IMG/VR virus record: IMGVR_UViG_3300042923_000970
Span: 1-36,928 of that record
Direction: 5' to 3' (one strand)
Length of the DNA stretch: 36,928 nt
Source of the DNA: a virus
Each line of letters begins with the position of its first letter. Position 1 is the first letter of the stretch. Shown one piece after another: positions 2,877 through 15,097 of the stretch. Below the pieces are notes generated by a model that saw only the letters and a list, made by a program, of their open reading frames with translations, was not told the origin of the DNA and ran no database searches. The position numbers and the translations under genes are program-made.

Positions 2877-3032
2877 ATGGATTTATTTGCATTGGATACA
2901 CTTATTGTTACTTTTGTAAAAAGACTAATGACAGACTCAATGCTTCAATTTTCGATAATGGCAGCTATAGGGGCTGTAGTAGGTGGATTGTTTCCTGATA
3001 GCAAGAGTAGTAAGGGGAGTAAAAAATGGTAA
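2877..3032 (+). CDS. Small membrane peptide (51 aa)
   Basis: GGGGGTGG precedes ATG 2877. The product has a hydrophobic segment (FSIMAAIGAVVGGLF) and ends PDSKSSKGSKKW. The gene overlaps the FtsK-like gene by 7 bases, so the two are translationally coupled. No family is recognised. Confidence 0.65.
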   Translation: MDLFALDTLIVTFVKRLMTDSMLQFSIMAAIGAVVGGLFPDSKSSKGSKKW

Positions 3033-4264
3033 TTGAATTAGTTTTAGTTGGTATAGCTTATTCAACTTACAAATATTTAAAGGTTACTGGATTCCGATAC
3101 AAAAAAGAGTTTAGGGAATTAGTTGAAAAGGCGGGGCTTTATAATAAAAAAGAGCAAACATTAAGAGTTCATAAAGTAACTCAATTAGAATACGGATATA
3201 GGCTCAATTGTGGCGTACCTTATGGAATAGGGCTAGAGGATATACAACAGTTAGAGGATACCTTTAAAACCAATTTGGAAGCCACAGAGGTGCGAATAGA
3301 GAGGGCAAAGGGGAAAAGCATGGTGAATATAACTGTTATTACAAAGCCTTTAACAGAACTGGTATATGAGCCAGTAAATACAGAGCCTTATGAGATTTAT
3401 CCAGGTTTCAATCATACAGAAAATAGAAGGATATCATTAAATAAGCAACCTCATGTATTAGTTGGCGGAAGTACGGGTAGCGGTAAGAGCCGATTGATGT
3501 TGTGTATTCTCACAAACCTTATAACAAACCATAGAAACATTGATTTATATATTTTGCAATTGAGGAAAGGTGATTTAAAGGTATTTAGTAGGTGTAAACA
3601 GGTTAAATACTTCGCTGATAAGCTTCAAAAAGCTAGAGACGTTCTATCACACATAAATAACCTCTGTATAGAGCGTGATGGGACAATAGATAAATATATC
3701 TTTGAAGGAATTTACAATATAGAAGACTATAATAAGCGGTTTAAAACTAATCAGTTAAGTTATGTTCATGTAGTTACAGATGAATTTGCTTTTTTTATAC
3801 CATCAAAAGCCGATCAATCAGATGAAAAGAAACTAAAACAAGAGTGTTTAGCTTATATAAAAAATATAATTTTGACAGGACGCTCAGTAGGAGTATTCAT
3901 ATATACTTCACTTCAAAGACCTGATAAGAGTTCTATACCAGCTGATATAAAAGCACAACTTAATGTTAGAATAAGTTTTAAACAAAGAGATGATAGCAGT
4001 AGTATTGCAATTTTAGGAAACGGAAATGCAACTAATTTAAAGGAAAGAGAAGCTATTTTGCAACTTACAGATGAGGAAATTATAAGAGTGCCCTTTATAG
4101 ATGATGGTGTTATTAAAAAATATATATCTGATAGCATTGAACCTAATCACCAGTATATAACCTTAACTGAAAATAAAGAGTTTAGAATTGATGAAGTAAT
4201 TTGTAATGAGAATCAAGCAATTGACAGTGAGGTGCTAAAAAATGTTGACTTTGAGGGATTTTGA
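3026..4264 (+). CDS. FtsK/SpoIIIE-like DNA translocase (412 aa)
   Basis: N-terminal membrane helix (about residues 3-20). The motor domain has Walker A GGSTGSGKSR (147-156), Walker B YVHVVTDEFAFF (246-257) and a sensor-like stretch (ILTGRSVGVFIYTSLQRPD). This is the pattern of FtsK/SpoIIIE/TraB-type hexameric motors that move double-stranded DNA. At 412 aa it is much shorter than chromosomal FtsK and lacks an obvious C-terminal gamma domain. It resembles the translocases of plasmids, ICEs and phage-plasmids. It overlaps the gene before it and the replication-relaxation gene after it, so it probably acts with that protein. GGGGAG precedes the start. Confidence 0.88.
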   Translation: MVIELVLVGIAYSTYKYLKVTGFRYKKEFRELVEKAGLYNKKEQTLRVHKVTQLEYGYRLNCGVPYGIGLEDIQQLEDTFKTNLEATEVRIERAKGKSMVNITVITKPLTELVYEPVNTEPYEIYPGFNHTENRRISLNKQPHVLVGGSTGSGKSRLMLCILTNLITNHRNIDLYILQLRKGDLKVFSRCKQVKYFADKLQKARDVLSHINNLCIERDGTIDKYIFEGIYNIEDYNKRFKTNQLSYVHVVTDEFAFFIPSKADQSDEKKLKQECLAYIKNIILTGRSVGVFIYTSLQRPDKSSIPADIKAQLNVRISFKQRDDSSSIAILGNGNATNLKEREAILQLTDEEIIRVPFIDDGVIKKYISDSIEPNHQYITLTENKEFRIDEVICNENQAIDSEVLKNVDFEGF

Positions 4265-4811
4265 TTTAGTAAAATTTGTTATAGATAACAGCTGTATTAC
4301 AGCAAAACAGGCTCATAAAATATTTTTTAAACATGCTAATAGAGGGTTGCTAATAGCAAGAAGAAGATTAAAGATGTTAGCAGATTCCAAGGAGCTTTTG
4401 GTAACAGAAGACTGGAAGACAAATCAAAAAATATATTATCTGAAGAAAAAACCATCGATGCATACTTTAAAATGCTTAGATTTCTATGCAGAATTAATAT
4501 ATCAAGGTGCGGAGATACTTCAATTCAAAAGGGAATTAAAGCTTTTAAAATGCACACCTGATGCGTTTATAGCTTTTAAAATTAATGATAAGGGGAAAAT
4601 GATTTTTTTGGAGGTCGATTTATATAATAGGAGCAACCCTAATAAATATAAAATTCTTTATGAAAGCCAAGAGTTTCAGAAGAAATATGGTATATTTCCA
4701 CTGATAGTAATTGTATCAAAATATTCAAATGATAAGGTTAATACACCTTACAAAATCAAGTATATAGATTTAAATCTTCAGGATCTAAAAGAAAAGCTAT
4801 TTGTAAATTAG
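4242..4811 (+). CDS. Replication-relaxation family protein (189 aa)
   Basis: The N-terminal ~75 residues look like a winged helix (LRDFDLVKFVIDNSCITAKQ, ARRRLKMLADSKELLV). The C-terminal part has TPDAFIAF followed by GKMIFLEVDL, a PD...ExD pattern like the PD-(D/E)XK nuclease fold and typical of the replication-relaxation family found on Firmicute plasmids and mobile elements. The family is often encoded beside an FtsK-like ATPase, as here, with a 23-base overlap. A role in recognising or nicking DNA for the translocase is inference. GAGGTG precedes ATG 4242. Confidence 0.75.
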   Translation: MLTLRDFDLVKFVIDNSCITAKQAHKIFFKHANRGLLIARRRLKMLADSKELLVTEDWKTNQKIYYLKKKPSMHTLKCLDFYAELIYQGAEILQFKRELKLLKCTPDAFIAFKINDKGKMIFLEVDLYNRSNPNKYKILYESQEFQKKYGIFPLIVIVSKYSNDKVNTPYKIKYIDLNLQDLKEKLFVN

Positions 4812-5672: not shown

Positions 5673-6845
5673 ATGTCATCTATACCTAATATGGATTTAA
5701 AAGAGTTTAACAAATGGGAATGCAAAGTAAAGAAAAATGTATATTCATTTGAGGTTCTATGTAATCTGATTAAAGATGGAGAACATAGAAAACATGGAGG
5801 GATAGTTTTACAACCTGACTATCAGCGTGAGTATAAATTTGATAGGAAGAAAGAATCAAGTATAATAGAGTCGCTTCTACTAAATATCCCCATACCTGTT
5901 ATATATTTATCTAAAGATACTGAACAGGAGAAAGTCCTATTAAATGTTATAGATGGTCATCACAGATTGAAAGCCATGTATAGATATAAAAATAATTTAT
6001 TTCCTTTAGCACAACTAACTAAGCTTACAAAACTTGATGGATTGTCTTTTGACCAACTTCCTCCAAACGTAAAAAACCGTTTAGAAATGGATAGTCAAAT
6101 TAATGTCGAAAGTATCGATGTTTCTATGAATGAAGAGTTAGAATATGAGGTGTTTGCAAGATTTAATCAAGCTACAAACCCATTAACTAAGCAAGAGTTA
6201 AATGAAGTGATATATCGCTCTGAGTTTTCACTTTGGTTAAGAAATACTTTACTTAAAGATTTAAGTAAAAGTATTAAGTTCAAAGAGATGTTTAAATGTA
6301 ACAAAACTAGAGAAATAGATAAAACTATAAATTATGATTTATATGCCTGTCTCGGCTATTCCTATTCTGGACTAGTTGAAGGAAAAAATGATACTCCATA
6401 CTATGTTGAACGATTTATGAAGGAAATGAAGAAATTACCCATTGATAAATTAGAGATACAAAAAGTAAAAATTGAAAATTACTTTAATAAATTTTTGATG
6501 TTTTATCATAAAATATCGTGTATCGAAGGAATAGAAAATATATTTTCTAAAGAATTCGTTACTAAAGTAACTCCTAAGGGCAATCATAATTTTCTTATAA
6601 GTTTTCTAATACCATTAACGCTGGCTTATGATTATTTATCACTCAAGGGGTATTTTGTTAATAGACAATTGAATGATTCTGATTACCACATAGCTTATAA
6701 GGCTATTGTGAGAGGAATGAATTCAGCCAATTTTATTGATTTCGGTGGAGTTTCTTCTACAAGCTATCGTTTCCAAAAAAAATGTATTGATTGTATTAAA
6801 GAATCTATTGATCAAATGTTAGTAAAACAGACCGTTAAACTTTGA
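5673..6845 (+). CDS. Stand-alone DUF262 domain protein (390 aa)
   Basis: Motifs of the ParB-like DUF262 (GmrS N-terminal) family: QPDYQREYKFD (47-57), ESLLLNIPIPVIYL (66-79) and DGHHR (94-98). DUF262 domains bind or hydrolyse nucleotides, and the DGxxR motif is essential in restriction proteins such as GmrSD and SspE. The C-terminal ~200 residues are helical and match nothing I know; there is no DUF1524 HNH nuclease, so this is not a complete GmrSD. GGGGGG precedes the ATG. The gene stands alone, with a strong terminator after it and a promoter-size gap before it, as expected of an independently expressed cargo or defence gene. Function unproven. Confidence 0.8.
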   Translation: MSSIPNMDLKEFNKWECKVKKNVYSFEVLCNLIKDGEHRKHGGIVLQPDYQREYKFDRKKESSIIESLLLNIPIPVIYLSKDTEQEKVLLNVIDGHHRLKAMYRYKNNLFPLAQLTKLTKLDGLSFDQLPPNVKNRLEMDSQINVESIDVSMNEELEYEVFARFNQATNPLTKQELNEVIYRSEFSLWLRNTLLKDLSKSIKFKEMFKCNKTREIDKTINYDLYACLGYSYSGLVEGKNDTPYYVERFMKEMKKLPIDKLEIQKVKIENYFNKFLMFYHKISCIEGIENIFSKEFVTKVTPKGNHNFLISFLIPLTLAYDYLSLKGYFVNRQLNDSDYHIAYKAIVRGMNSANFIDFGGVSSTSYRFQKKCIDCIKESIDQMLVKQTVKL

Positions 6846-7963: not shown

Positions 7964-8452
7964 CTATTCATCTACGCTTTTATCAAGAACTGTAGATTTT
8001 ATAACACTTTCTAAAACAAGATAATCAATACGTCTATGGTTTGATATTTCTTTTTTACAGTATTTGTTAGCTATTTCAATTATTTTATTAGTTCGCATAT
8101 AACTAAATAACTTTCTATCAAAAACTACAGTCTTATTTTCCTCGTACCACGATAGCAGATTAATGGATTCATCATTATTAATCAATTTGATACTTTCTAA
8201 ACACTTAATATCCTTAATATCAATTTCTTCAGTATGTACTTTTACATAAACTAAATCTTTAGTTCTTTTTCGATTATTGTCAGTAACTAAGTCTTTTAAT
8301 AACTGTAGAGTTATATCAGTAAAAATATGAGAATCAACCTTTATAGCTAATATTTTTGTATCAGATGAGATTTGAATAAAATTGGAATTGCATACTGCTG
8401 CACTTACAAACATTTGTAACCAATCCCATTTATCTTCTTTTTGAAAAATCAA
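7964..8452 (-). CDS. Hypothetical protein (~162 aa), first gene of minus unit
   Basis: TTG 8452 with AGAGGTG six bases upstream is preferred; the GTG at 8461 is part of that site. The N-terminus reads IFQKEDKWDWLQMFVSAAVC. The protein alternates beta and helix (TKILAIKVDSHIFTDITLQL, LVYVKVHTEEIDIKDIKCLE), ends in a basic region (EISNHRRIDYLVLESVIKS), and has no recognised motif. It is transcribed from a near-consensus minus-strand promoter at 8516-8544. Confidence 0.7.
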   Translation of the reverse strand: MIFQKEDKWDWLQMFVSAAVCNSNFIQISSDTKILAIKVDSHIFTDITLQLLKDLVTDNNRKRTKDLVYVKVHTEEIDIKDIKCLESIKLINNDESINLLSWYEENKTVVFDRKLFSYMRTNKIIEIANKYCKKEISNHRRIDYLVLESVIKSTVLDKSVDE

Positions 8453-9878: not shown

Positions 9879-10040
9879 ACCGCTGATAGTAATAGTCTTT
9901 GTGATATTTGTGGCAAGAGAATTGAGGATGTAATGAATAATAGAAAATATTGTTCAGATTGTGCAAAAGAAATTGACAGAGCAAAAGCAAAAGAACGTAT
10001 GAAAAAAATAAGGGGTGTTCGAAAGTCTCAAAGCTTGTAA
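9879..10040 (+). pseudogene. Zinc-ribbon gene remnant, copy a
   Basis: 53 open codons without a start codon. They read CDICGKRIEDVMNNRKYCSD CAKE then a basic tail rich in K and R (AKAKERMKKIRGVRKSQSL) before TAA at 10038. C-x2-C ... KYC-x2-C is a zinc ribbon. The TAA is followed after three bases by TTGATAT. Copy b at 10628 aligns without gaps over about 38 residues. Whether any start exists upstream in another frame is unclear. Confidence 0.55.
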
Positions 10041-10058
10041 CTCTTGATATATCTAATA
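10029..10058 (+). repeat. TTGATAT-family repeat A
   Basis: CTTGTAACTCTTGATATATC, core 10044-10050, directly after the stop of zinc-ribbon remnant a. It faces repeat B about 55 bases away. Confidence 0.6.
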
Positions 10059-10103
10059 TTCACAATTTTAAAAATAAATCTCATAGTATAAAAATACCGA
10101 TAA

Positions 10104-10130
10104 ACCTAGTAATATCAATGCTTTGAAGCT
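10104..10130 (-). repeat. TTGATAT-family repeat B (inverted)
   Basis: Minus strand reads CTTCAAAGCATTGATATTAC then TAGG; core 10112-10118. It converges with repeat A. Confidence 0.7.
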
Positions 10131-10228
10131 ATTTACCATTAATAGTCTACTAGGGAAGAGTATCTATATTTACAAATTCCAAGAGGTATAAAACTTCCCA
10201 CCATAAAGGGCTACAAACTTACAGAATC

Positions 10229-10402
10229 ATGCTTACACTACAACTTCTATATAATAGTCACCAATTAAATACATTATCTGTGTTTAGAAATAGTAACAAT
10301 AAAAACGAAAATGTATTAATTAGAGATAACAACGGAAATATAGATATATTTGGTTATAAATACACATTATCAAAAAGAAATAAGTTACATAGAGAAGTAT
10401 GA
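10229..10402 (+). CDS. Possible small gene (57 aa)
   Basis: ATG to TGA, protein-like composition (KNENVLIRDNNGNIDIFGYK) and a basic end (TLSKRNKLHREV). No ribosome binding site is visible, so it may be a decayed coding stretch in this degenerate region. The downstream end lies about 25 bases before repeat C. Confidence 0.3.
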   Translation: MLTLQLLYNSHQLNTLSVFRNSNNKNENVLIRDNNGNIDIFGYKYTLSKRNKLHREV

Positions 10403-10427
10403 CAAATGTATAACTTTTTAAAACATA

Positions 10428-10463
10428 CACCCTTCAAAGCCAGTTATATCAATGCTTTAAAGA
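10428..10463 (-). repeat. TTGATAT-family repeat C (inverted)
   Basis: Minus strand reads TTTAAAGCATTGATATAACT, then GGCTTTGAAGGGTGTATG; core 10446-10452. It matches repeat H beyond the core, through AAAGGGTGTAT. Confidence 0.75.
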
Positions 10464-10555
10464 CTTGCTCTTATAAGACTATATAGAATATATAATAAAA
10501 TATGTTCTATAAATTATTATGGAGGGAGTGAATCCCTATTAATAATATATCTATA

Positions 10556-10589
10556 AGGACAATAGCTAGCCTAATATCTAAATTGTCCT
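10556..10589. repeat. 8-bp inverted repeat
   Basis: AGGACAAT (10556-10563) and ATTGTCCT (10582-10589) with an 18-base loop. The match extends to TATAAGGACAAT with one missing base. No T-run follows. Confidence 0.5.
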
Positions 10590-10627
10590 ATAAAATTAAA
10601 AGGACTACCTCAAACACATGATGGTGA

Positions 10628-10762
10628 AAGAATATAAATGATACTATACATAACAAAAAATATTGTACTATATGTAGTAGAAATGTAAAAATGCAAAAAT
10701 ACAGAAATAGAATGAAAATGTACAGAGATAGTCGAAAGCAACAATATCCTTATAACTATTGA
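10628..10762 (+). pseudogene. Zinc-ribbon gene remnant, copy b
   Basis: 44 open codons without a start, reading INDTIHNKKYCTICSRNVKM then QKYRNRMKMYRDSRKQQ. It aligns gap-free with copy a (KYCxxC, then K..RM..R..RK.Q). The first CxxC of the ribbon is lost. Its TGA stop is inside repeat D. Confidence 0.5.
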
Positions 10763-10772
10763 TATAACATGG
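10748..10772 (+). repeat. TTGATAT-family repeat D
   Basis: CCTTATAACTATTGATATAA, core 10759-10765, overlapping the end of zinc-ribbon remnant b. Confidence 0.7.
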
Positions 10773-10962
10773 TTTGCAGTAACGGAGTGTTATTTTCCTT
10801 TTTATGAATACATAAAAATAATTAAAAATATACACACTTTTTACAACGTAATTTTGAAGGTGTTGAAACTACTATGTTTGTAAGATATGTTTTAAAAGTT
10901 GCCTTAGTTATTTAGGTAGAAAGATATATTAATAATTCTACATTTAATAATTTAAAACAAGA

Positions 10963-10990
10963 CCTTGAAAGCATTGATATTACTAAGGTT
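10963..10990 (+). repeat. TTGATAT-family repeat E
   Basis: CCTTGAAAGCATTGATATTA then CTAAGGTTTAAGG; core 10974-10980. Confidence 0.75.
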
Positions 10991-11041
10991 TAAGGACTTT
11001 ATTTTAAAGAGTGGGAAAAAATCCTAGGGAGATAGAATTAA

Positions 11042-11104
11042 ATTCCAAATGATAAAAAATATAAAGAAAATCGAAAAAAGTTTGAAATAGAAGAAACCTT
11101 ATAA
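11042..11104 (+). pseudogene. Zinc-ribbon gene remnant, copy c (tail only)
   Basis: 20 codons, IPNDKKYKENRKKFEIEETL, then TAA. Only the basic tail resembles copies a and b (K-x-Y/I-R/K-x-x-RK). As in copy a, the TAA is followed by three bases and TTGATAT (repeat F). Confidence 0.4.
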
Positions 11105-11122
11105 GCATTGATATGACTAGCC
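11097..11122 (+). repeat. TTGATAT-family repeat F
   Basis: CCTTATAAGCATTGATATGA then CTAGCCTT; core 11108-11114. A TATAAT stands about 22 bases beyond the TTGATA. Confidence 0.75.
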
Positions 11123-11185
11123 TTACAGTCCATTATATAATAATTTTACCATTTTCTATTATGTAGTATATGAAACAAACTCACC

Positions 11186-11523: not shown

Positions 11524-13329
11524 TTGAAAATTTATAATTGTAATGAAGTTAAACTTAATAACCAGAAGGAATATTTAAAAAAAGAAATATGGGACGGTTA
11601 TAATCAAAATATATTTAAAGTTTTAGATCATGAATGTGGTACTGGAAAATCTAGAACCGTTGAGGAAGCATTTGCAGAATATGAAACAACAGAATTTGCC
11701 TGCTATAATTTTAAAGTGTTATTTGTAAGAGAGAGAATAGAAGATTGTATAAATAGTGCAAAGAGAATAAATGAATTAGCAGGGAAAACTATTGCAATAG
11801 CAGTCAATACAAAAACTTATAATACTAAAGAGTTTAATAAGATTAAGAAGACATTAAAGGATTTTAGAATAGTAATAATTACTCATGAAAAATATAAATC
11901 ACTATGCACTGATAAAGAAAATAAAAAGTATTTTGAAGAAAAAAGAGATACATTAGTAATTGATGAGTTTTTAAACATGTGCAAAGGTAACGAATTAACC
12001 ATCAATCAAAAATGGATTAGTAACATAGAAACCATGTTAGGACATAGAACATTAAGAAATCAATTTGTAGATTGTGTGGCTGAGATAGAAGATTATTTAC
12101 TTTCAGAAAAGCCTATACAATCTTTTTTTAATGCTAAAATACCTTTAAAAACAATAACTACAAGGATTAACGCATTAAAAAAGTCTATAAAGAATGCTCT
12201 TACAAAAGAATATCTTAATGAGCAGGGATATACTAAAAGGCAATTAATAGAAGATATTGAAAACATAAAGCAGTTTTATATTCAAACCTGTGTATGCGAG
12301 GGAAATACAATATATTGTACAAATAGACGTTATCAATATTGGTTTCTATCAATGAACAATATAATACTTGATGCTAGTGCTACTTTAAATATGGCTTATA
12401 AATTAAGTCCTAATTTTGTAGTGCAGCATCAATCACCAGTGTTAGACCATTCAAAGTGGTCTTTTTTAATTTACAAAACAAATAGTTGTAAGAGTGCTAA
12501 AGAACGAGCTATCAATTATTATCAAGAGCTTAATAAGATTGTTGAACAAAATAATATTGATAATACTTTAGTCATTGGCAATAAAGAAGATGAAGCATTT
12601 ACAAAGGCTAATTATAAAAATCATTTTGGAAACATCACAGGAAGTAATGATTATAAGCAGTTAACCAATTGTGTTATAACTCATAATCCTAATATGCCAT
12701 TTCGTCAATACGTGCTAGAGTACCTTTATTATTCCAATAAGAAACTAGATAATAGAAATTCTTGGTCTGGTCTTAATAATGGTAAAGGCGATGAAAAAGT
12801 ATATAGGTTCAAAGAAGATAAATTTGAAGAATATAGACAATGCAAAAATGCAAATGAGATATACCAAGCAATTAAACGTGTTAACAGAACAATGGAAAAA
12901 GAATCTAAAATATATATCTTTAACAATGATAGTGAAACTATAGATAGAGTATTAAAGATGTTTAAAGGCAATAAAAAGGTTGCTGAGTATGAAAACTTTA
13001 TTGAATTTGGAAAGACAGACATGGATAAATACAACGAAGAACGCCAAGAGAATAGACATGCAATGAAGTTTATTACCTTATGCAAAGAAATAATACAGCT
13101 AAGACATATTGATTTACAAGCAACTAAAAAAAATAGAAAAGGTGAAGAAGAACAATTAATAGGTACATATAAGAAGTCTACATTAAGAGAATGTTTAGGT
13201 ATTAAAGATAAGGGGCAATTCAAAAGAGATATTCTTGACGATGTAGATGTTATAGGATTTTGTGCTAGACATAGTATTAAATTATCTGGTCAAACATTGG
13301 ATTTTAATAACGCCAAGTTAGTTGTATAA
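11524..13329 (+). CDS. SF2 helicase-like ATPase, probable replication protein (601 aa)
   Basis: Start TTG 11524 after GAAAGGA. Walker A ECGTGKSR (37-44), a motif Ia-like THEKY (120-124), Walker B LVIDEF (144-149), a motif III-like DASAT (about 282-286) and a motif VI-like QAIKRVNR, where the arginines would be the ATP-sensing fingers. This is the order of superfamily 2 helicases. The C-terminal ~100 residues (KSTLRECLGIKDKGQFKRDI...) look like a DNA-binding helical domain. No separate initiator, polymerase or primase is present in the window, so this is the best candidate for the replication protein, and the TTGATAT repeats flank it on both sides. Exact family not recognised. Confidence 0.75.
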   Translation: MKIYNCNEVKLNNQKEYLKKEIWDGYNQNIFKVLDHECGTGKSRTVEEAFAEYETTEFACYNFKVLFVRERIEDCINSAKRINELAGKTIAIAVNTKTYNTKEFNKIKKTLKDFRIVIITHEKYKSLCTDKENKKYFEEKRDTLVIDEFLNMCKGNELTINQKWISNIETMLGHRTLRNQFVDCVAEIEDYLLSEKPIQSFFNAKIPLKTITTRINALKKSIKNALTKEYLNEQGYTKRQLIEDIENIKQFYIQTCVCEGNTIYCTNRRYQYWFLSMNNIILDASATLNMAYKLSPNFVVQHQSPVLDHSKWSFLIYKTNSCKSAKERAINYYQELNKIVEQNNIDNTLVIGNKEDEAFTKANYKNHFGNITGSNDYKQLTNCVITHNPNMPFRQYVLEYLYYSNKKLDNRNSWSGLNNGKGDEKVYRFKEDKFEEYRQCKNANEIYQAIKRVNRTMEKESKIYIFNNDSETIDRVLKMFKGNKKVAEYENFIEFGKTDMDKYNEERQENRHAMKFITLCKEIIQLRHIDLQATKKNRKGEEEQLIGTYKKSTLRECLGIKDKGQFKRDILDDVDVIGFCARHSIKLSGQTLDFNNAKLVV

Positions 13330-13362
13330 GCACTACTGTAAGCAGGTCGCTTAGTATAACCC

Positions 13363-13417
13363 GAGGGGAAACCCCTCTAGTTGTCTTTCCACTACGTGTA
13401 AAGGACTTTTATATTTT
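13363..13417 (+). terminator. Tandem hairpins ending the helicase gene
   Basis: GAGGGG/CCCCTC (13363-13377), extended by AAC/GTT, then a second hairpin GTC...GAC (13383-13406) with AAAG/CTTT pairing, followed by CTTTTATATTTT. Confidence 0.65.
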
Positions 13418-13435
13418 AATTTATTATTATATGTA

Positions 13436-13460
13436 TAAAAAGTTGATATGACTTCTTAAT
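13436..13460 (+). repeat. TTGATAT-family repeat G
   Basis: AAAAAGTTGATATGACTTCT, core 13443-13449, a weaker match (the AAAGCA part is reduced). Confidence 0.5.
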
Positions 13461-13495
13461 AATATATATCTATTAAAAGATGGGGTCAACTTTCT

Positions 13496-13533
13496 TTACA
13501 AAGCATTGATATATCTACGTTTAAAGGGTGTAT
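13496..13533 (+). repeat. TTGATAT-family repeat H
   Basis: TTACAAAGCATTGATATATC then TACGTTTAAAGGGTGTATA; core 13506-13512. It shares a long match with inverted repeat C. Confidence 0.75.
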
Positions 13534-13617: not shown

Positions 13618-13647
13618 TATCAGTAAATAAATATAAATAAAGAGTAC

Positions 13648-13930
13648 ATTTCTTTTCATGTTATGAAAGAAGACTTATAGCGTTAGCTATAGGTCACACT
13701 AGATCTTACCTACAGATGTGCTGATATAGATTATGTCTCGTCATCAAGTACGAGTCGGTAAAAAGAGGTCACGCTAAGTGGCTACAAAATAAATTGTTAT
13801 CGATAGAAACGATAGCAAAAATAAATTAAAAAAGATGGAATGTATTAAAATGGACATGAATTTTAAACTATTTACAGGAGAAACAATAAAGTTAATCAGA
13901 GGTTGGGATATAAAGTCCTGACCTCTTTTT
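13648..13930 (+). ncRNA. Candidate structured non-coding RNA
   Basis: Five or six hairpins in about 280 bases. TTTCAT/ATGAAA (around 13651-13668); GACTTATAGC/GCTATAGGTC with GTTA loop (13672-13695, 10 bp, one G-U); CTCGT/ACGAG (13737-13754); GTCAC/GTGGC (13768-13782, one G-U); TTGTTATCG/CGATAGCAA (13794-13818, 9 bp, one G-U); then a 10-bp hairpin 13899-13925 with two G-U pairs and five Ts as terminator. The frequent G-U pairs keep stems intact despite base changes, as expected for RNA. No known RNA class is recognised, and strand is inferred from the terminator. Confidence 0.45.
13899..13930 (+). terminator. Intrinsic terminator
   Basis: GAGGTTGGGA (13899-13908) pairs with TCCTGACCTC (13916-13925) including two G-U pairs, followed by TTTTT. 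Confidence 0.8.
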
Positions 13931-13937
13931 ATATTTC

Positions 13938-13960
13938 CGTTAGTTCTATTATGGCTAACG
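13938..13960. repeat. CGTTAG/CTAACG hairpin
   Basis: Perfect 6-bp stem with 11-base loop. Two further short inverted repeats follow it up to the HNH gene (GGCT/AGCC, and CTTTC...GAAAG around the palindrome ATTTATATAAAT). Confidence 0.5.
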
Positions 13961-14015
13961 CTAGTGGCTAAAAAATAAGCCTTTCAAATTTATATAAATG
14001 AAAGGGAGTATGTTA

Positions 14016-14594
14016 ATGAGAAAAAATGGTGTAAAAAACATGTATGAATTAAAAGGAGATGTAGCATATCTGTACGTTACAAATAAGAATTACTCAAATA
14101 AAAGTATAGTGTTTAGTTCAGAGCACTTGGATGAGGTTAGAAGATTTAAGTGGACTATTAACAGTAAGGGATACTGTATTAGTACAACTAAATTTGACCA
14201 GAGAGTTATATTTTTACATAGGTTAGTTACTAAATGTCCTGAAGATTTGGTCGTAGATCATATAAACCATGATACCTTTAATAACGTGGATGATAACCTA
14301 AGAATCTGTACCGATAGAGAGAATTCTTTCAATAAAGGTATAAGGAAAGATAATAAATGTGGTTATAGAGGAGTATCATTTCACAAAGCTTCATGTAAGT
14401 GGAGATGTGAACTAAGAGTTGATGGAAAAAAGAAATGGATAGGACTTTATAATACGCCAGAAGAAGCTTATCAAGCTAGGTTAAAAGCTGAAAAAGAGTA
14501 TTTTGGAGAATTTAGATATTTGGAAAAAGAAAAAGTTGTACCTACTGCAATAGATACAACCCCCTTGAACACTCTGCAAAGTGTTCCAATGTAA
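14016..14594 (+). CDS. HNH endonuclease with AP2 DNA-binding domain (192 aa)
   Basis: ATG 14016 lies 7 bases after AAAGGGAG; the longer reading from 13998 lacks a site. Numbered from 14016, the HNH nuclease is at about 45-107, with LHRLV, VVDHINHD (79-86) and DNLRICTDRENSFN, the order H...DHxNxxxxNN...N of HNH homing enzymes. An AP2 domain follows (about 116-169, GYRGVSF... WRCELRVDGKKKWIGLYNTP... EEAYQARLKAEKEYFG). HNH-AP2 proteins are mostly free-standing homing endonucleases of phages that nick DNA and spread their own gene. No intron was recognised around it. It may target the neighbouring replication locus. Confidence 0.92.
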   Translation: MRKNGVKNMYELKGDVAYLYVTNKNYSNKSIVFSSEHLDEVRRFKWTINSKGYCISTTKFDQRVIFLHRLVTKCPEDLVVDHINHDTFNNVDDNLRICTDRENSFNKGIRKDNKCGYRGVSFHKASCKWRCELRVDGKKKWIGLYNTPEEAYQARLKAEKEYFGEFRYLEKEKVVPTAIDTTPLNTLQSVPM

Positions 14595-14639
14595 TTTATA
14601 CACATTAATATTATAGTACATAATTTAAAGATTATTCAA

Positions 14640-14668
14640 GGGCTCGTCATTAAGTATGAGCCCTTTTA
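14640..14668 (+). terminator. Terminator of the HNH gene
   Basis: GGGCTC (14640-14645) pairs with GAGCCC (14658-14663), then TTTTATT. Its CTCGTCATTAAGTATGAG resembles the hairpin at 13737-13754 (two substitutions). Confidence 0.8.
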
Positions 14669-14689
14669 TTATTACTGGAGGTGTCAAAG

Positions 14690-15097
14690 GTGGAAGATAA
14701 GAAGCGGACGTATTCTCTTAACCAAGGAAGTTATTTAATAATGCTCGGCTATCCATACGAAATTAAATTTGATGAAGAAACAGCCAGATTTTATTTGGTG
14801 TTTCCTCAAGAAGATGAGGTTAAAAAAGCTATACAACTATATAAGAGCAGGCAGGTAGAAGTTAATTTATTTGATTTTACTAAAGCTTATAAGAAGCTAA
14901 GAGATGAAATTAGAAGCATCAGATTTAGTAGTGATGGGTTTGCTGTTAAATATTCTTTATGTAAGATTAAATCAATAAGTAAAAATGAAAAAACAAATAA
15001 AGAGTTTGTAGAGCAAAGGAATAAATTTTTAGAGGAATATTATGAGGAAAATTATTTTGATGGTGTAAGGGTGGTGGATGAAGATGAATTTAATTAA
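14690..15097 (+). CDS. Conserved phage hypothetical protein, possibly DUF5659-like (135 aa)
   Basis: GTG 14690 lies 8 bases after GGAGG; the GTG at 14681 is part of that site. The N-terminal part (RTYSLNQGSYLIMLGYPYEI, then ARFYLVFPQEDEVKKAIQLY) has the pattern of short phage proteins I know as DUF5659. The C-terminal half is helical and charged and ends YFDGVRVVDEDEFN. It overlaps the next gene by 20 bases. Function unknown. Confidence 0.65.
   Translation: MEDKKRTYSLNQGSYLIMLGYPYEIKFDEETARFYLVFPQEDEVKKAIQLYKSRQVEVNLFDFTKAYKKLRDEIRSIRFSSDGFAVKYSLCKIKSISKNEKTNKEFVEQRNKFLEEYYEENYFDGVRVVDEDEFN

Follow-up and report, generated by a model that had tools for sequence, protein, structure and literature searches.

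Large phage-associated noncoding RNAs such as GOLLD and ROOL are several hundred bases long. In T4 I-TevI and segB, as well as in Aeh1 mobE, single RNA hairpins that control the homing endonuclease gene cover the ribosome site of the endonuclease itself (PMC2988022). The locus considered here belongs to a 36.9-kb virus record (IMG/VR IMGVR_UViG_3300042923_000970) whose genes include those for capsid, terminase, portal and tail; the nearest terminase relatives that were found come from Clostridia, related bacteria and their phages. We call the window the whole stretch of DNA that was analysed, 36,928 nucleotides. Elsewhere in it, an FtsK-like gene with a weak Replic_Relax match after it (3026-4811) suggests a plasmid-like replication or transfer module, and 5673-6845 encodes a protein with a GmrSD N-terminal domain, possibly a phage-carried defence gene. 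Between its helicase and HNH endonuclease genes the window carries a cluster of hairpins, and the most likely reading of this cluster is that it is the control region of a gene now mostly lost, rather than a free-standing RNA.

Folded as RNA, the + strand of positions 13640-13852 (213 nt) reaches -57.1 kcal/mol, against a mean of -35.8 kcal/mol for shuffled sequences (z -5.67), with none of 200 shuffles as stable. The minus strand reaches z -1.51, and the same stretch folded as single-stranded DNA reaches z -2.39. The RNA lies 21 kcal below its shuffles, while the top 200-nt stretch in a coarse scan of both strands lies 17.5 kcal below, a comparison somewhat favourable to the former, which was picked with known ends. 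Computed folding confirms in this manner a predicted stable hairpin cluster of about 200 bases on the + strand of this phage genome. The whole folded RNA (13643-13846; all features of the cluster are on the + strand) is shut by a closing helix, 13643-13652/13837-13846, which has no support from the homologue described below. Inside lie hp1 (13653-13669), present in the fold only and not kept in that homologue, and hp2 (13672-13695, GACTTATAGC-GTTA-GCTATAGGTC), a fold prediction not conserved there in place. A third region follows, which pairs over 13706-13761 in the minimum-energy fold or else forms a hairpin at 13737-13754 (CTCGT-CATCAAGT-ACGAG). Then come hp4 (13767-13783) and hp5 (13794-13818). 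Several of the stems hold G-U pairs. Farther on, an intrinsic terminator occupies 13898-13930 (+), with a 12-pair stem (13898-13926) followed by four to five T. Hairpins, G-U pairs and terminator are thus all present, as the original prediction had it.

One homologue of the RNA was found, in L054. This sequence belongs to a viral contig of 24 kb, and the metagenome it comes from also yielded L015, a viral contig carrying a relative of the window's helicase. L054 came from a search with the gene located 3′ of the HNH gene (14681-15097), and the RNA model scores 62.6 bits on it (E 1.6e-16). Window positions 13735-13819 are 86% identical to L054 1497-1580, and 13819-13849 (+), the ribosome-site region of the downstream gene, are 94% identical to L054 1661-1691. 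The portion conserved in L054 is that from 13735 to 13849, terminator not included. Some 80 additional bases separate the two blocks in L054, including an extra hairpin (GCTAACG..CGTTAGC), and the spacing of core and start codon is not the same in the two phages, the difference being about 80 nt. An exact extended -10 motif, TGGTATAAT, is found in L054 at 1404, about 90 nt upstream of the core; directly upstream of the RNA in the window we saw no clear sigma-70 promoter. Genes farther downstream are common to both sequences.

Twelve of the 85 aligned columns have changed, eight of them among the 45 unpaired positions of the aligned core and four among the 40 positions that make the stems of the three core hairpins, and these four all preserve pairing. 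In hp5, a G-C pair of the window is replaced by A-U through changes on both sides; two wobble pairs have become Watson-Crick pairs, one in hp4 (G-U to A-U) and one in hp5 (U-G to U-A), and no stem pair is broken. The original prediction had named compensatory changes as one way to check it, and the single homologue shows one such double change beside the two wobble changes. The loop of hp5 has changed, and so has that of hairpin 13737-13754, on an identical stem. In the window this hairpin competes with the long stem 13706-13761 of the minimum-energy fold, and we infer from its retention in L054 that the hairpin is the functional form. Sliding the partner in the two-sequence alignment abolishes pairing; a shuffle control for covariation is uninformative because there are two sequences only. 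For the core alone, the fold z-score is -3.97 (window) and -5.46 (L054). Taking these two sequences together, the hairpin core is quite probably a genuinely conserved one.

What stands behind the RNA suggests what it may be for. In L054 it lies directly upstream of an intact gene of 220 amino acids (MSKFKLYTGETI..., with protein start MSKFKLYTGETIEG), and no terminator comes between the core and this gene. The window retains a truncated gene, 13850-13921 (+), of 23 codons (MDMNFKLFTGETIKLIRGWDIKS), about 10 of which are homologous to the L054 gene: the 94% block is followed by MDMNFKLFTGETIK, then by unrelated sequence with a stop at 13921, and the body of the 220-aa gene is absent from the window. 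In the ten matching codons, differences at codon positions 1/2/3 number 1/1/7, a pattern which argues that 13850-13921 was a real coding start. The window terminator overlaps this vestige. The approximately 280 bases had been described as gene-free; to judge from the alignment, they are instead a conserved structured leader followed by a truncated gene. The terminator and the HNH gene lie outside the conserved arrangement and occur in the window alone. The 220-aa protein has no relatives in Pfam, in PHROGs, or among phages and plasmids.

With the same gene start downstream of the RNA in the window and in its one homologue, we put at about even the chance that this structured RNA serves as the 5′ leader of the MSKFKLYTGETI gene, the body of which was lost in the window. 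The conserved core would comprise three short hairpins joined by A-rich linkers, some 30-110 nt upstream of the gene start, and would probably act in cis on expression of the gene, with ribosome access, mRNA stability or protein binding as candidate mechanisms. A translational leader hiding the ribosome site via the closing helix gains no support beyond chance: hiding was no stronger than with shuffled leaders, fractions of which (0.21 and 0.11) reached the same. Both phages would have inherited the leader, and that of the window would then have lost most of the gene, with a few first codons, a terminator and the HNH endonuclease gene now standing behind the leader. The window transcript would measure about 0.3 kb and be nearly non-coding. 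Points against this reading are the sample of two sequences, the unequal spacing of core and start codon, the chance-level hiding of the ribosome site and the lack of a clear sigma-70 promoter directly upstream of the RNA in the window. A broader view, rather unlikely, is that of a new family of phage regulatory RNAs built on a core of three hairpins, which in this phage, once its own gene was lost, may work in trans or switch a terminator.

Other explanations must be weighed against this leader. A separate trans-acting small RNA, about 0.3 kb long and running to the terminator at 13930, with the short ORF as an incident, would agree with the strong fold, the good terminator and an ORF of 23 codons only. 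However, L054 has no terminator separating the core from an intact gene, and the vestige shows the codon pattern of a real gene, making this account rather unlikely. Less probable still is an attenuator of the HNH gene, where the terminator would alternate with a helix 13759-13771/13919-13931, antitermination resulting in read-through into the HNH gene. Positions 13759-13771 (+) are indeed a 13-nt perfect complement to the terminator 3′ arm and T tract (13919-13931), a match reached by none of 400 shuffles and by no other stretch of the window; the alternative fold exists (-68.5 vs -76.5 kcal/mol), and no promoter-like site is seen on the + strand from the terminator to the HNH start. Yet this alternative is 8 kcal/mol weaker than the terminator form, it engages the 3′ arm and T tract where typical attenuators use the 5′ arm, and the relatives of the HNH gene have no such leader. 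L054 lacks this complement, which makes it a local adaptation or a coincidence.

The hairpins might also work as DNA, be it in rolling-circle replication, where they would form a single-strand origin (sso), or as a DNA hairpin site of another kind. Several hairpins in one stretch would fit, as would the TAGCGT of hp2, which we take to be the ssoA CS-6 motif, and the FtsK-like and weak Replic_Relax genes at 3026-4811. TAGCGT, however, has seven copies in the window, the number that chance would give, the stretch is far less exceptional as single-stranded DNA than as RNA, the stems hold G-U pairs and changes run from G-U to A-U, so that such a site is quite improbable. Finally, a remnant of a small protein gene with incidental hairpins is about as improbable: an ORF of L054 (1447-1671, 74 codons) overlaps the core, and 19 residues match at 63%, but substitutions of 6/2/3 by codon position, without third-position bias, together with a frame-breaking indel in the window make coding by the core unlikely, while no protein family matches and it is the loops that change and the stems that are kept.

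The RNA was first noticed between helicase and HNH genes, and it is not tied to either neighbour. Relatives of the helicase are found in the viral contig L003/L015 (61%) and in the Clostridiaceae genomes L048 (51%), L049 (31%), L050 (29%) and L051 (25%); L015, L048, L049 and L050 are without the RNA. As for the HNH gene, three phage relatives have almost no upstream gap, the HNH relatives examined have no such companion RNA, and the RNA of L054 does not adjoin an HNH gene. The endonuclease gene found before the shared downstream genes is of the HNH type in the window, where L054 and L037 have a GIY-YIG gene. The window HNH gene and the L037 GIY-YIG gene have the same C-terminal tail (IDT..NTLQS..M) and the same 3′ flank (window 14523-14694; L037 5779-5946) despite unrelated nuclease domains, suggesting that endonuclease genes are swapped at one site. 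Several details of this region deserve mention. A hairpin at 13980-14005 extends over the HNH gene's ribosome site, an arrangement reported for several homing endonuclease genes of T4 type. There are two copies of the hairpin CTCGTCATYAAGTAYGAG, one in the RNA core (13737-13754), the other forming the stem of the terminator that follows the HNH gene (14643-14660), with 0.03 expected by chance for this pattern. An imperfect direct repeat, CGCTA(A)GTGGCTAMAAAATAA, at 13772-13793 and 13959-13980, might serve as a protein site or be no more than a scar, and three of the seven window copies of ACGCTA/TAGCGT cluster near 13772-13980.

A different hairpin, 52-55 nt long, sits 110-190 nt downstream of the helicase gene end in four mobile elements: in the window (13439-13493), L003 (7897-7948), L048 (12141-12194) and L049 (6157-6210). 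Its base, AAAGT/ACTTT, is invariant, and the outer stems vary in sequence with compensatory changes that keep the pairing; when arms are mixed between genomes, most variable pairs are broken. A model of this hairpin, run against 206 Clostridiaceae genomes, matched only behind two helicase relatives, both of them part of the model. This hairpin may belong to the replication origin of these elements. Directly 3′ of the helicase stop (13330-13400) lie GCACTACTG, one or two hairpins and CCACTACG, an arrangement common to L003 7780-7860, and L003 also has an inverted copy of the GCACTACTG/CCACTACG segment at 8150-8225. The sequence AAAGCATTGATATNACTA, which reads SIDIT, is a motif some 28 nt long that recurs in both orientations at 9900-11140, a mostly gene-free stretch, and at 13500-13527; it is also found in L015 upstream of the helicase and in L054 at 1616-1640, and in places it follows remnants of zinc-ribbon-like ORFs.

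Relatives of the RNA were looked for widely. The original prediction recognised no known class, and Rfam, searched at two thresholds, agrees, with neither a curated nor a plausible sub-threshold match (group I/II introns, T-box, GOLLD, ROOL, OLE, HEARO and others). A structured RNA outside the Rfam families is hence supported; the roles proposed for it (replication control, an antisense regulator or a noncoding phage RNA) are not. DNA searches of phage and plasmid collections with the window region, and of phages with that of L054, gave nothing of note. When exact core patterns were sought in viral contigs, two had no match and the CTCGT pattern appeared in five contigs, close to the number estimated by chance. 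A single-sequence covariance model (R1) found nothing credible in the loci and about 800 Clostridia genomes: its match in L038 is put down to chance (one weak match in 391 genomes), that in L039 likewise (an unrelated terminator), and a minus-strand match at 13216-13415 folds no better than shuffles. The two-sequence model (R3), run over one draw of 206 genomes and another of 391, had no match. L054 nevertheless defines a core of three hairpins with a gene conserved beside it, and offers a natural case of gene loss, making the role of the RNA directly testable; should the core prove regulatory, it would stand for an RNA family absent from Rfam. More generally, a structured stretch that seems gene-free can be the remnant leader of a lost gene.

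How, then, does this locus compare with described systems? Like GOLLD and ROOL, it is a structured RNA in a phage-like element (PMC12286853), but, unlike them, the window RNA has no match in Rfam. It shares with sso1 of ICEBs1 (PMC4595007) several intergenic hairpins in an element whose genes include FtsK-like and replication ones; in contrast to sso1, the window stretch folds unusually well only as RNA, and TAGCGT is the sso sequence that was compared. Leaders and riboswitch candidates obtained by comparative genomics (for example PMC2864571) have in common with it multiple hairpins upstream of a gene, pair-preserving changes and lack of a coding signal, although here there are two sequences only, with no ligand and no conserved expression platform. 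As with the RNAs of phage homing endonucleases (PMC2988022), a stable leader structure is found near an endonuclease gene, and the HNH gene of the window has its own hairpin at 13980-14005; unlike those cases, the hairpin cluster of the window would be the leader of another gene, already in place before the HNH gene arrived.
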